Source: Halapricum desulfuricans (lineage in GTDB: Archaea; Halobacteriota; Halobacteria; Halobacteriales; Haloarculaceae). Taken from it: DNA of 64,000 nt. Positions 49,299 to 53,704 of this stretch are shown here, one piece after another. The notes beneath the pieces were generated by a model. It was not told where the DNA came from. It saw only the letters and a program-made list of their open reading frames with translations, and ran no database searches. The stretch is taken from positions 1-64,000 of the forward strand of contig NZ_CP064788.1 of NCBI RefSeq assembly GCF_017094525.1, read 5' to 3'. The position numbers and the translations under genes were made by a program. Position 1 is the first letter of the stretch, and each line of letters begins with the position of its first letter.

Positions 49299-49787
49299 TC
49301 ACTCATCAAACAGGGTCTGTGCTCGTCTGTATATTGGTGCGCCGAGCCAGTCCCGCTGTTGTGCAAGTTCCTCGAGTTTGTGCAGGGCCTGCTGTTTTTC
49401 CAGGACGTCTCTGTTGACGAGAGCTTTCAACACGATAGGTGAGATCGCCACCTGTGCGTCTGCGAGTGTCTGGAGCTCGGGGAGTGCCCGGAGGTCGTCC
49501 GTGATCAGGAACGTTGCGTCTCGCTCGTTGGCAAGGCGTACGCAGCTCCCTTCGCCTTGATCGATGCGAGACGAGGTGAATTCTCCCTGAGCCTGGGCGG
49601 TGTGTATTCGTTCGATGGTGTCGAGGACGGTGTCGGCTGCTTTGCCGTGTCGGTCGTTGTACTCCGCAGTCGCTTCTAGCTCTGCAACGACGGTGTCCGT
49701 CGTGTGGACATCGAATTCCGTCAGGAAGGTGTCGAGGAGGTCGATCGTGGCGATCGAGATGAGGGCGCTTGTATCCGCGACGATCAT
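49299..49787 (-). CDS. PIN-domain (VapC-like) toxin
   Basis: A 162-residue PIN protein with acidic residues in IVADTSALISI (Asp4), VVAELEAT (Glu38), DQGEGSCVRLA (about 76-80) and LITDDLRAL (about 96-97), the RNase site. It is the likely mRNA/tRNA-cleaving toxin of a VapBC-type pair, following the RHH gene by 9 bp. Confidence 0.85.
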   Translation of the reverse strand: MIVADTSALISIATIDLLDTFLTEFDVHTTDTVVAELEATAEYNDRHGKAADTVLDTIERIHTAQAQGEFTSSRIDQGEGSCVRLANERDATFLITDDLRALPELQTLADAQVAISPIVLKALVNRDVLEKQQALHKLEELAQQRDWLGAPIYRRAQTLFDE

Positions 49788-49796
49788 ATGAAAAGG

Positions 49797-50102
49797 TCAC
49801 GACAGTTCTGCGAGGTCGTCGGCCACGTCTTCGCCTTCGTCCAGAAGGGTTTTCGATGCACGGACGGATGCGGCGTCCTGCCGTCCAATGAACTCCTTGA
49901 GGACGTCAAACCCAATTTCGTCGTCGAGATAGAGTTCCACGACCGCTTCCTTGAATTTCTCGTTATCCTCGACAGTCTCCAAATAGTCCTGGAGTGCTTC
50001 GACGACGATTTCGGTCCGGTTCTTGTGCGTGACTTCCGCCGCCACGTCCGCCTTCTCGATCAGGCTCTCCGGCAGTCGGAAGTTGACCCTGGTACTGCCC
50101 AT
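49797..50102 (-). CDS. RHH-type antitoxin for the PIN protein
   Basis: A 101-residue protein with a ribbon-helix-helix N-terminus (STRVNFRLPESLIEKADVAAEVTHKNRTEIVVEALQDYLETV) and acidic C-terminus. It should bind DNA and neutralise the downstream PIN toxin. Being first in the pair is the standard antitoxin-toxin order. Confidence 0.82.
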   Translation of the reverse strand: MGSTRVNFRLPESLIEKADVAAEVTHKNRTEIVVEALQDYLETVEDNEKFKEAVVELYLDDEIGFDVLKEFIGRQDAASVRASKTLLDEGEDVADDLAELS

Positions 50103-50230
50103 TCTCGAACCACCTGTTGTCTGTACGTTGTGGTCACAGATTCAAATCAGTTCGGTGTCTCCCAAGCCCATCACAGTTACTATCGAGATCACAACGCTTA
50201 TTGAGGCGGTCTGACAAGGAACGAGCGAGT

Positions 50231-50311
50231 ATGACGGCCGAACCCGAAAGCAGGCGTCGCGTCCGCCAGCCGACCGTGTTCGACGGGTTCGGCTTCTTTT
50301 TCGAACGTTGA
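50231..50311 (+). CDS. Phe-rich 26-aa leader peptide upstream of pheST
   Basis: An ATG-started frame with basic middle (SRRRVRQ) ends VFDGFGFFFER, five phenylalanines in the last eleven residues, then TGA. It follows a TATA-like CGCTTATTG at about 50186-50194. It lies 157 bp ahead of pheS, encoding the enzyme that charges tRNA-Phe. Two hairpins (50332-50345 and 50382-50417) follow before pheS. This mirrors bacterial attenuation leaders such as pheM, but no U-tract terminator is seen, so the mechanism is unknown. Confidence 0.6.
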   Translation: MTAEPESRRRVRQPTVFDGFGFFFER

Positions 50312-50331
50312 GAGCGGCGGACTGCGGGGCC

Positions 50332-50345
50332 GACGCTAGCGCGTC
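50332..50345 (+). promoter_or_regulatory. Hairpin after the leader peptide
   Basis: GACGC-TAGC-GCGTC forms a 5-bp stem with a 4-nt loop, 20 nt after the leader stop codon. Confidence 0.4.
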
Positions 50346-50381
50346 ATCCCACACGAAACCGCTCTGTTGTCGACCGTCCCA

Positions 50382-50417
50382 GCGCGTGGCCTGCCGATCG
50401 GTAGTGTGGCCGCGTGC
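50382..50417 (+). promoter_or_regulatory. Strong hairpin between the leader peptide and pheS
   Basis: GCGCGTGGCC (50382-50391) pairs with GGCCGCGTGC (50408-50417), ten pairs including two G-U, and the 16-nt loop contains the near-palindrome TGCCGATCGGTA. It ends about 50 nt before the pheS ATG. It could be a control structure or a processing site. Confidence 0.45.
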
Positions 50418-50468
50418 GACCACTATGAGAACCGTTAACTGACGGACCCACGGTTTCCCTACCAAGAA

Positions 50469-51974
50469 ATGAAACTCCCGGAAACGCAGGTCGCGGTCGT
50501 CGAGGCCGCGAGCGCGACCGAAGTGCGGACAGTCGAATCGCTCGCCGACGAACTCGATCACAAGCCGGCATCGATCACCCGTGCGGCCTTCGAACTCGAA
50601 GACGAAGGGCTGCTGGACGTGATCGAATCGACCGACGAATCGGTCTCGTTGACCGACGAGGGGCGGACGTACCTCGAGGACGGGCTCCCCGAGATACGGC
50701 TGTACGAGGCCGCACTCGAGGCCGCGGACGGCGACCCCGTCGAGATGGGGGAGGTCATCGGCGCGTCCGGCCTCGAGGGCGGAGCCGTCGACATCGCGCT
50801 GTCGAACCTCGCCCGGAAGGGCTACGGCGAGATCGACAGCGGCGAGATCTCGCCCGATCCCGACGCCGACCCGGACGCCGACGAGGAGGTCACAGCCCTG
50901 GAAGCGATCGAGAGCGGCGACGCGGACCTCGTGGCCGAAGACACGCTCGACCAGCTCGAGCGACGCGGGCTGATCGAGCGCTCCGAGCGGACGGTTCGAT
51001 CGGTACAACTCACCGACGAGGGCGTGACGGCGCTGATGGAGGGGATCGAAGTCGCCGAGGCAGTCGATCGGCTCACCTCCGAGCTGCTCACCAGCGGCGA
51101 GTGGCGCGACGTGGAGTTCAGCGAGTACAACGTCGCGGCCGACGCCCCGGACATCGACGGGGGCAAGCACCACCCGCTGCGGTCGATGGCCGAGCGCGTC
51201 AAGGACGTGCTGGTCGGGATGGGGTTCGAAGAGATGCAGGGGCCACACGCTGACGCCGAGTTCTGGATCAACGACTGTCTGTTCATGCCCCAGGACCACC
51301 CCGCCCGCACCCACTGGGACCAGTTCGCCCTGGACGTCCCGCCGATGGGAGCGCTCCCCGACGGCGTTCGCGAGCGCGTCGAAGGTGCCCACCGCGAGGG
51401 CGTCGGCGAGGACGGACAGGGCTACCACTCGCCGTGGGGCGAGGAGATGGCCCGACAGATCGACCTGCGCGGGCACACGACCTCGCTGTCGGCCCGGTAC
51501 CTCTCGGGGATCGCCGAGGGCGACCTCGAGCCGCCACAGCGGTACTTCTCTATCGAGAAAGCCTACCGAAACGACGAGATCGACGCCACCCACCTGCTTG
51601 AGTTCTTCCAGATTGAGGGGTGGGTGATGGCCGAGGACCTGTCGGTGCGTGACCTGATGGGGACGTTCACCGAGTTCTACGAGCAGTTCGGGATCACCGA
51701 CCTGCAGTTCAAGCCCACCTACAACCCCTACACGGAGCCGAGCTTCGAGCTGTTCGGCGAACACCCTGTCACGGGCGAGGTCGTCGAGATCGGCAACTCC
51801 GGGATCTTCCGCCCGGAGATGCTCGAGCCGCTGGGCGTCGACTGCGACGTGATGGCCTGGGGGCTGGCCCTGGAGCGGCTGATGATGCTGGTGACCGGCG
51901 CGGAGGACATCCGCGACGTCCACGGGACGCTCGTGGATCTGGACTATCTGCGGACCGAGGAGGTGCGTTACTGA
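50469..51974 (+). CDS. pheS: Phenylalanyl-tRNA synthetase alpha subunit
   Basis: This 501-residue class II synthetase subunit has archaeal N-terminal winged-helix domains (about 1-200) and a catalytic core with motif 1 GKHHPLRSMAERVKDVLVGMGFEEM, motif 2 QRYFSIEKAYRNDEIDATH and motif 3 MAWGLALERLMML. It activates phenylalanine and charges tRNA-Phe. The stop overlaps the pheT start as TGATG, so the two are coupled. The start follows a Phe-rich leader region. Confidence 0.95.
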   Translation: MKLPETQVAVVEAASATEVRTVESLADELDHKPASITRAAFELEDEGLLDVIESTDESVSLTDEGRTYLEDGLPEIRLYEAALEAADGDPVEMGEVIGASGLEGGAVDIALSNLARKGYGEIDSGEISPDPDADPDADEEVTALEAIESGDADLVAEDTLDQLERRGLIERSERTVRSVQLTDEGVTALMEGIEVAEAVDRLTSELLTSGEWRDVEFSEYNVAADAPDIDGGKHHPLRSMAERVKDVLVGMGFEEMQGPHADAEFWINDCLFMPQDHPARTHWDQFALDVPPMGALPDGVRERVEGAHREGVGEDGQGYHSPWGEEMARQIDLRGHTTSLSARYLSGIAEGDLEPPQRYFSIEKAYRNDEIDATHLLEFFQIEGWVMAEDLSVRDLMGTFTEFYEQFGITDLQFKPTYNPYTEPSFELFGEHPVTGEVVEIGNSGIFRPEMLEPLGVDCDVMAWGLALERLMMLVTGAEDIRDVHGTLVDLDYLRTEEVRY

Positions 51975-53704
51975 TGCCCACTGTCGACATCGACACCGAC
52001 GAACTGCGCGAGTTGACCGGCTACGAGGACAAAAGCGACGAGCAGCTCAGAGACGACCTGTTCGAGCTGGGGCTGGAGTACGAGGGCGAGACCGAGGAGG
52101 GCGAGCTGCGCTTCGAGTTCGAGCCCGACCGGCTGGATCGCCTCTCGGTCGAGGGCGTGGCGCGCTCGCTGCAGTATCACTACGGCGACAGCCGCGGGGT
52201 GCACGTCCCGAGCACCAACAGCGCCGAGTGGACGATCGAGGTCGAGGACGTCCCCGAAGAGCGCCCCTACGTGACGGGCGCGGTCGTTCGCGGGCTCGAT
52301 CTCAGCCAGGCGGGCTTCGACTCGCTGATTCAACTGCAGGAGAAACTCCACGCGACGATGGGGCGCAAGCGCGCGAAGGGCGCGATCGGCGTCCACGATC
52401 TGACGATGCTCAAGGGAGAGGCGGCGGTGGAGGGCGGCGGGAAGACAGTCCGCTATACGGGCGTCGATCCCGACGAGGTGCGGTTCGTCCCGCTGGAGAG
52501 CGACGCGGAGATGACCCCCGCCGAGGTCATCGAGAACCACCACATCGGCACGGAGTACGGCCACCTCGTCGAGGACATGGACCGGGTGCCGGCGATCTAC
52601 GACTCGATCGGTCTGTTCTCGTTCCCGCCGGTCGTCAACGGTCGCCGGACCGAGGTGACGACCGACTCGCGGGACCTGTTCATCGAGATGACCGGCACCG
52701 ATCAGTGGACGATCGACCACATGTTGAACATCGTCTGCTACGCGCTGGCGGCCCGCGGCGGGACCATCGAGAACGTCCGCGTCGAGTACGAGACGGCACC
52801 CGAGGAGTATCCGGCCGAACTGGTCCGGCCGGACCTCTCGACGACCGAGAAGACCGTCGCCCACGACGACATCGAGACGACGCTGGGGATCGATCTCTCG
52901 GCAGCCGACGTGATCGACCTGCTGGAACGCTCGGGACTCGACGGGGAGTCGACCGAGACCGAAGACGGCGAGCCGGCCTACGAGGTCACGATTCCGCCCT
53001 ATCGCGTGGACGTGCGCCATCCGGTCGACGTGATCGACGATGTCGGTCGAGCGTACGGGTTCAACGAACTGGAGCCGCGGTATCCGGACGTGGGGACGAT
53101 CGGCGGTCGACACGAGCGGTCGCGACTGGAGCGGGCCGTCCGCGAGACGCTAGTCGGGCTTGGGTTCCAGGGCCTGTTGAACTTCCACATGACCGACGAG
53201 GAGCAGGTCAGCGGCCGGATGAACCTCGGCGACAGCGAAGACGTGCTGGGGGCGGCCGAGCCGGTTCAGATCCGGAACTCCTACAGCGAGGACTACACCA
53301 TCACCCGATCGTGGCTGTTGCCCTCGATCATGCAGGTGCTCGAGAACAACACCCACCGGAGCTATCCCCAGGATCTGGCGGAGGTCGGCTGGGTCGCCCA
53401 CCGCGACGACGAGCAGAATACCGGCGTCGCGGAATCGCGCCACGTCGCGGCCGTGCTCGCACGCCACGAGGTGTCCTTCGAGGACGGCAAGGCCCGCCTG
53501 CAGGCGCTCGTCGAGTCCTTCGGAGCCGACGTCGAGACGCCGCCCACAGACCACCCGACCTTCATTTCGGGTCGAACCGCCGAGATCGTCGTCGACGGCG
53601 ACGCCGTCGGCGTGATCGGAGAGGTCCATCCGAAAGTGCTGGTCGAATACGATCTGGAACTGCCGGTCGTGGCATTCGAGTTCGATATCGAAGCGCTGCG
53701 GTAG
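51974..53704 (+). CDS. pheT: Phenylalanyl-tRNA synthetase beta subunit
   Basis: A 576-residue subunit of archaeal/eukaryotic length (shorter than bacterial PheT). It has the B3/4 editing domain (YVTGAVVRGLDLSQAGFDSLIQLQEKLHATMGRKR), the B5 domain (ETTLGIDLSAADVIDLLERSGL) and the pseudo-catalytic core (YPQDLAEVGWVAH, AVGVIGEVHPKVLVEYDLELPVVAFEFDIEAL). It forms the (alpha-beta)2 enzyme with PheS. Confidence 0.95.
   Translation: MPTVDIDTDELRELTGYEDKSDEQLRDDLFELGLEYEGETEEGELRFEFEPDRLDRLSVEGVARSLQYHYGDSRGVHVPSTNSAEWTIEVEDVPEERPYVTGAVVRGLDLSQAGFDSLIQLQEKLHATMGRKRAKGAIGVHDLTMLKGEAAVEGGGKTVRYTGVDPDEVRFVPLESDAEMTPAEVIENHHIGTEYGHLVEDMDRVPAIYDSIGLFSFPPVVNGRRTEVTTDSRDLFIEMTGTDQWTIDHMLNIVCYALAARGGTIENVRVEYETAPEEYPAELVRPDLSTTEKTVAHDDIETTLGIDLSAADVIDLLERSGLDGESTETEDGEPAYEVTIPPYRVDVRHPVDVIDDVGRAYGFNELEPRYPDVGTIGGRHERSRLERAVRETLVGLGFQGLLNFHMTDEEQVSGRMNLGDSEDVLGAAEPVQIRNSYSEDYTITRSWLLPSIMQVLENNTHRSYPQDLAEVGWVAHRDDEQNTGVAESRHVAAVLARHEVSFEDGKARLQALVESFGADVETPPTDHPTFISGRTAEIVVDGDAVGVIGEVHPKVLVEYDLELPVVAFEFDIEALR

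Follow-up and report, generated by a model that had tools for sequence, protein, structure and literature searches.

The window, by which we mean the whole 64,000-nucleotide stretch of Halapricum desulfuricans DNA that was analysed, carries the genes for both subunits of phenylalanine--tRNA ligase, and upstream of them lies a short Phe-rich upstream open frame (uORF) behind a putative promoter. The features are as follows.

50195 to 50204, plus strand: TATA-like box CGCTTATTG of the leader promoter, with an equivalent box in relatives (promoter function inferred)
50231 to 50311, plus strand: Phe-rich, apparently leaderless uORF encoding MTAEPESRRRVRQPTVFDGFGFFFER (26 aa), an open frame with counterparts at 124 of the 161 haloarchaeal pheS loci compared
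50279 to 50281, plus strand: additional Phe codon of the uORF
50288 to 50302, plus strand: putative regulatory Phe codons, TTC (codon 20) and TTC TTT TTC (codons 22 to 24), kept as Phe with TTC/TTT variation
50469 to 51974, plus strand: pheS, alpha subunit, matching NCBIfam TIGR00468 above the cut-off
51974 to 53704, plus strand: pheT, beta subunit, a 576-aa open frame overlapping pheS by one base

The name pheT rests on position and on the initial annotation, without a family search. The uORF starts with ATG, stops with TGA and has Phe at codons 17, 20, 22, 23 and 24, its last eleven residues holding all five; it ends 157 nt before pheS. The CGCTTATTG box is about 27-31 nt 5' of the uORF ATG and, given this spacing, the transcript is expected to have no untranslated sequence before the ATG, or almost none. 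No Shine-Dalgarno sequence is apparent 5' of pheS in the window. The initial annotation, made from sequence alone, had described a 26-codon frame with five Phe in its last eleven residues, 157 nt from pheS and following a TATA-like box, and had seen no U-tract terminator. All of this held; we found no bacterial-type intrinsic U-tract terminator in 50150-50500. Beside the leader are two small adjoining frames on the minus strand, 49299-49787 and 49797-50102, which by eye, without a family search, resemble a PIN-domain toxin and a ribbon-helix-helix antitoxin.

Conservation of the uORF was examined in 161 pheS upstream regions, namely, those from 80 named haloarchaeal contigs, from 80 further loci that partly repeat species of the first set, and from the window. 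A uORF was scored when an ATG-started frame had at least 3 Phe within its last 14 residues. The raw count was 125 and, after the spurious locus L060 was dropped, a Phe-rich uORF preceded pheS in 124 of the 161 haloarchaeal loci, 114 of the uORFs being distinct; this is far more than a chance occurrence. Their consensus is MASEPx..GFGFFFAA, their typical length is 24-29 codons with 3-5 Phe codons each, and in nearly all relatives a AACGCTTTTG/AACGTTTTTG box lies 5' of the ATG at a position like that in the window. The last Phe is 0-3 codons from the stop in all distinct uORFs. Between the uORF stop and the pheS ATG there are anywhere from about 80 to 245 nt. Within the genus of the window the uORFs differ by synonymous and other changes (MTAEPESRRRARQPTVFDGFGFFFPS, MTAEPESRCRVRKPTVFGGFGFVFAH and MPAEPHCRRLVGQPTDSAGFGFFFGACGR). 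Thus, the conservation of the frame and its Phe run on which the initial annotation had made its reading depend held, both in the genus and across the class. Phe codon usage also sets the uORFs apart: TTT accounts for 25% of their Phe codons versus 4.3% in the pheS and pheT genes of those species (p 1.7e-22, odds ratio 7.4), and in the window genome these two genes have 32 Phe codons, none of them TTT. About 20 haloarchaeal pheS loci, those of Natronomonas and Halohasta among them, lack a Phe-rich uORF and often have another frame close upstream. Outside the haloarchaea, 20 genomes of the same phylum gave no convincing Phe-rich uORF 5' of pheS; the one weak frame seen there, at L224, lies far upstream. 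A search for pheS on plasmids gave only distant bacterial matches.

Published transcript data from H. volcanii bear on whether such a frame is transcribed with pheS. A dRNA-seq study (PMC4983044, Table 2) lists 16 small proteins within 5'-UTRs of 150-250 nt, and among them are a 26-residue protein of pI 5.9 upstream of pheS, with no additional transcription start site (TSS) at pheS, and a 23-residue protein upstream of a tryptophan--tRNA ligase gene. Only length, pI and mass are given there; richness in Phe or Trp, structure, conservation, regulation and attenuation are not discussed. A Haloferax pheS uORF in our set, MASEPKRGARASEPTTDGFGFFFLTA, not necessarily that of H. volcanii itself, also has 26 residues, a pI of 5.94 and a distance of 212 nt to pheS; its mass is 2792 Da versus 2772 in PMC4983044. 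The initial annotation would have been refuted if pheS transcripts started only 3' of 50311. From the 5'-end mapping this is not so in H. volcanii, where pheS transcripts do not start solely 3' of the uORF.

Three helices, P0, P1 and P2, were recognised in the leader RNA.

50236 to 50246, plus strand: P0 5' strand, GGCCGAACCCG, uORF codons 2-6 (window fold; covariation, 0 of 500 shuffles)
50284 to 50294, plus strand: P0 3' strand, CGGGTTCGGCT, around the Gly-Phe-Gly codons (window fold; covariation)
50311 to 50317, plus strand: P1 5' strand, AGAGCGG, from the last base of the stop codon (covariation)
50318 to 50321, plus strand: internal loop, 5' side, CGGA (GG in 94 of 94 segments, A in 85 of 94)
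50323 to 50353, plus strand: P2 hairpin (covariation; window fold)
50355 to 50358, plus strand: internal loop, 3' side, GAAA (conserved, and also a segment selection criterion)
50359 to 50365, plus strand: P1 3' strand, CCGCTCT (covariation)

P0 is a helix of 9-11 bp within the uORF and is the most conserved structure of the leader; its consensus pairs codons 3-6 (CCGAAyCCs) with the Gly-Phe-Gly codons (sGGrTTCGG). In the aligned leaders the order from the stop codon is P1, the yGGA/GAAA internal loop and the variable hairpin P2. P1 mostly begins 0-6 nt from the stop codon, with up to 4 nt of overlap in a few loci, and, one outlier apart, 16-27 nt (most often 22) separate P0 from P1. The P1/P2 segments were picked by loop letters, that is, by a GG..GG(A/C) motif and GAAA, without using the helices; since the segments were selected on those letters, the invariance of the loop is partly by construction. 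In 52 sequences, 90.6% of the P1/P2 cells are paired versus 68.9% in shuffled alignments, and the covariation score is 0.561 versus 0.182, none of 500 shuffles being as high as the real alignment; slid controls scored far lower. For P0 alone the corresponding figures are 93.2% versus 84.8% and 0.227 versus 0.096, again with 0 of 500, and double changes occur at six of its pairs. Taken jointly, P0, P1 and P2 have 91.6% of cells paired versus 76.8% and a covariation of 0.375 versus 0.135, and no shuffle of 500 was as high on any of the five measures. When 39 complete leaders were given to RNAalifold with no structure supplied, P1 and P2 were predicted together with P0. This covariation supports P0, P1 and P2 as conserved RNA helices. 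The folding energy of the whole window leader is unremarkable for its composition (z -1.55), and therefore the structural evidence rests on covariation and not on energy.

Both hairpins named in the initial annotation occur in the minimum-energy fold, 50332-50336 with 50341-50345 and, with 10 pairs, 50382-50391 with 50408-50417, but they fared differently as regulatory parts. The first (50332-50345) held in part, being the tip of P2 in the covarying element 50311-50365. The second (50382-50417) failed the conservation check because it is absent in species with a short gap between the element and a motif upstream of pheS, motif B, described below; it was rejected as a core part since only 15-19 nt separate the element from motif B in about 15 loci. 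P0 (50236-50246 with 50284-50294) had been overlooked. A covariation scan of all column pairs gave P0, P1 and P2 as the leading helices and revealed no competing terminator or antiterminator helix, nor any covarying pairing of the leader with the region just 5' of pheS. At E up to 1, no Rfam model, including Phe_leader and T-box, matched 50150-50480.

The clear matches of a covariance model of P1/P2, R1, lie 5' of pheS in 59 genomes. A second match in the window, at 1425-1464, is weak (21.7 bits) and probably due to chance. The element is absent near pheS in loci without any uORF and is kept in decayed or variant leaders. In L046/L160, L032/L111 and L044 (Halomicrobium katesii, Halorhabdus amylolytica and a metagenome bin) the leader is decayed or frameshifted, with the Phe frame broken or Phe codons lost and the P1/P2 element still present. 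It could be argued that P1/P2 with its GGA/GAAA loop is a protein operator, for example for PheRS, or a ligand sensor, and that the uORF merely gates its folding; E. coli ThrRS is known to bind its own mRNA. The invariant loop letters, the strong covariation and the single-copy element tied to pheS favour this reading, but it leaves unexplained the retention of the distal Phe codons, the TTT enrichment and the joint absence of element and uORF, and we consider it unlikely. A kink-turn of the L7Ae-binding kind was rejected for the GGA/GAAA loop because the internal loop is symmetric and has no three-nucleotide bulge. Consecutive sheared G-A pairs are very stable, and the conservation of the loop may reflect no more than that stability.

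The Phe codons do not behave alike with respect to P0. The first, in Gly-Phe-Gly, is TTC in 94 of 94 uORFs. At L129 and L154 it is changed to Ser alongside a change of GAA to GGA, P0 being retained, and at L112 a displaced CCGAACGCCC pairs with GGGCGTTCGG. Because pairing is retained through these changes, we conclude that the first Phe codon is constrained by P0. The distal Phe codons are unpaired, stay Phe and vary between TTC and TTT. These observations bear on two readings in which the peptide itself acts. In the first, a GFGFFF nascent chain would arrest the ribosome from within the exit tunnel, possibly sensing free Phe, much as TnaC stalls with Trp. The C-terminal amino acids are indeed well conserved, 85 of 94 anchored uORFs having GFGF, but the Gly-Phe-Gly codons are accounted for by P0 pairing, the peptide varies elsewhere, some leaders have V, A or other residues within the Phe run, and the TTT enrichment suggests decoding. 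In the second, the uORF product would be a small protein acting in trans. The frame is short and conserved, and many small proteins are expressed by H. volcanii (PMC4983044), but the middle of the uORF is hypervariable, its conserved residues fall within the Phe run or the strands of P0, and it is at the nucleotide level that the pairing covaries. Both readings are very unlikely.

Between the element and pheS there is one further conserved sequence.

50428 to 50444, plus strand: motif B, GAACCGTTAACTGACGG, conserved 5' of pheS with and without the uORF

Its core lies about 30-50 nt 5' of pheS in most relatives, and the motif GAACCGYTAACTGAC precedes pheS in nearly all of them, even those without the uORF. 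Two roles are possible for motif B, that of a 5'-UTR element and that of a second core promoter, which may bypass the leader. It was rejected as a common promoter type because the exact form of its core, AACCGTTAACTG, occurs once in the genome; its resemblance to the leader TATA region (AAC.GYT) means that a promoter role is not excluded. The lack of a second TSS in H. volcanii argues against strong promoter use there. Covariation gave no support to competing helices in which P0, P1 or the Phe run would pair with motif A or motif B.

The most likely explanation is that the leader controls pheST in cis by ribosome position, sensing charged tRNA-Phe. The sensor parts, namely, the uORF, its Phe-codon bias, the covarying helices and their spacing, are well supported, while the stalling, the direction of control and the read-out are inferred; sensing of charged tRNA-Phe by ribosome stalling, which the initial annotation had put forward, likewise remains an inference. 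We propose that transcription would start at or just 5' of the uORF ATG and that a ribosome would load on the leaderless 5' end. The TTC TTT TTC run would sit in the linker of about 22 nt between P0 and P1/P2. When Phe-tRNA-Phe is scarce, the ribosome would be parked on the Phe codons and hold P0 open, and its expected footprint would end just before P1 so that P1/P2 folds. When Phe-tRNA-Phe is plentiful, the ribosome would reach the stop codon and cover the P1 5' strand, P0 re-forming behind it. Since P0 and P1/P2 flank the Phe codons about one ribosome apart, position could select the state without helix competition. The A site would hold a codon of the FFF run in the first state and the stop codon in the second. 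The distance from the A site to the front of the ribosome is about 12 nt from bacterial toeprints, and the footprint argument assumes that archaeal distances resemble these. The P1/P2-folded state would be the one in which pheST is expressed, and in the other it would be aborted; this direction is suggested because more PheRS at low charging makes physiological sense.

With no U-tract terminator, the likeliest read-out would be factor-dependent termination or cleavage of untranslated RNA in the stretch before pheS, and a factor of the FttA/aCPSF1 type is the archaeal candidate (PMC8116511). The Phe codons were rejected as a disguised U-tract since no run of more than 3 T occurs in 43 of the 124 uORFs. 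The same sensor could instead be read out on pheS translation, through access or re-initiation, or on RNA stability; control of translation or RNA processing, which the initial annotation had allowed, is still among the candidates. This is favoured by the absence of a terminator-like site from the window, by the lack of an apparent Shine-Dalgarno sequence before pheS and by a stable hairpin just past the uORF stop that could retain post-termination ribosomes, but the varying distance from uORF stop to pheS ATG and the lack of a covarying partner in the region before pheS speak against it. We give it rather less weight than a transcriptional read-out, translational control remaining possible as the main and strong alternative to factor-dependent termination or cleavage. 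The absence of the leader in some haloarchaea and a possible bypass through motif B count against the switch reading itself.

Leader-peptide attenuation is a textbook bacterial mechanism, and the pheST leader probably resembles it minus the terminator and the helix competition, although the mechanism is inferred. Like E. coli pheM (pheST), pheL (pheA) and the Rfam Phe_leader family, it has a Phe-codon-rich uORF; like pheM, it precedes synthetase genes; and in both kinds of leader hairpins surround the regulatory codons, which are partly in a hairpin strand. Unlike the bacterial Phe leaders, it has an apparently leaderless uORF, a stop-adjacent GGA/GAAA-loop element, no terminator, no competing antiterminator helix and no Rfam match. 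Since it lacks both terminator and competing helix, the switch would not be of the classical kind. T-box leaders are also cis-acting and 5' of synthetase genes, the signal presumably being tRNA charging, but the haloarchaeal leader carries its codons in a uORF whose translation is inferred. Among archaeal sequences, the small proteins of long 5'-UTRs in H. volcanii (PMC4983044) are alike in having a 26-aa frame before pheS and a 23-aa frame before a trpS.

A second leader of this kind was found upstream of trpS. A leaderless Trp-containing uORF that overlaps an inverted repeat, GTCCACTTCC...GGAAGTGGAC, lies 5' of haloarchaeal trpS genes, both chromosomal and plasmid-borne. The uORF is MVSTSHANCWRWHAFREVDSIAV on a Hfx. 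mediterranei plasmid, MASTSTDCWRWRRSEVDSLAAVVRRA and MVSTSTDRWRWRWQAPEVDSLAAATRRA in the genus of the window, and MASTSPDVRRWHPREVDSVAVAGRRA in genus g2, the one containing the Halorhabdus pheS matches; some variants have a GTG start and a single Trp (VSTSRETDERRWR). In the window genome, the uORF 84 nt from the chromosomal trpS is MASTSTDWRWRGPGVDSLAAVGRRA, with an imperfect repeat.

About 2345 to 2422 of locus L192 (window genome), reverse strand: Trp uORF

Trp uORFs are also present at L196, L197, L199, L236, L237, L240-L248 and L250. Of 242 haloarchaeal genomes, 11 have the exact repeat; trpS lies directly 3' of it in ten, and the remaining one (L249) yielded no frame downstream. The nearest known case is the attenuator of the auxiliary trpRS1 of Streptomyces, a Trp leader 5' of an indolmycin-resistant TrpRS. 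There too the leader peptide matches its synthetase; that system is bacterial and has a terminator, whereas in haloarchaea the Trp leader is leaderless and its uORF overlaps an inverted repeat.

A Trp uORF 5' of trpS means that the leader amino acid matches the synthetase in two systems, which suggests a class and not a single case. On balance we lean towards a bolder reading, in which haloarchaea would use an amino-acid-matched ribosome-position switch on leaderless leaders as a general device for synthetase genes (pheST and trpS). With similarly guarded preference, this reading includes a hairpin internal to the uORF and, at pheS, a stop-adjacent stable element in place of terminator/antiterminator competition. 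Archaea have eukaryote-like transcription and many leaderless mRNAs, and there is little functional evidence on their coupling of transcription and translation; if the reading is true, it would be a functional use of that coupling. We found no archaeal leader-peptide attenuation in the open-licence full texts searched, subscription papers and preprints being outside that scope, and to our knowledge this would be the first described. A conserved Phe leader in the tractable Haloferax, with covarying helices that can be broken and restored, makes archaeal ribosome-position control directly testable.

Upstream of a different trpS, on a plasmid of Haladaptatus salinisoli (L198), lies a short frame, MFAATTAGGRFWPTTAH, whose ATG follows a AACGTTTTT box. 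This frame may be another Trp leader, unrelated in sequence.
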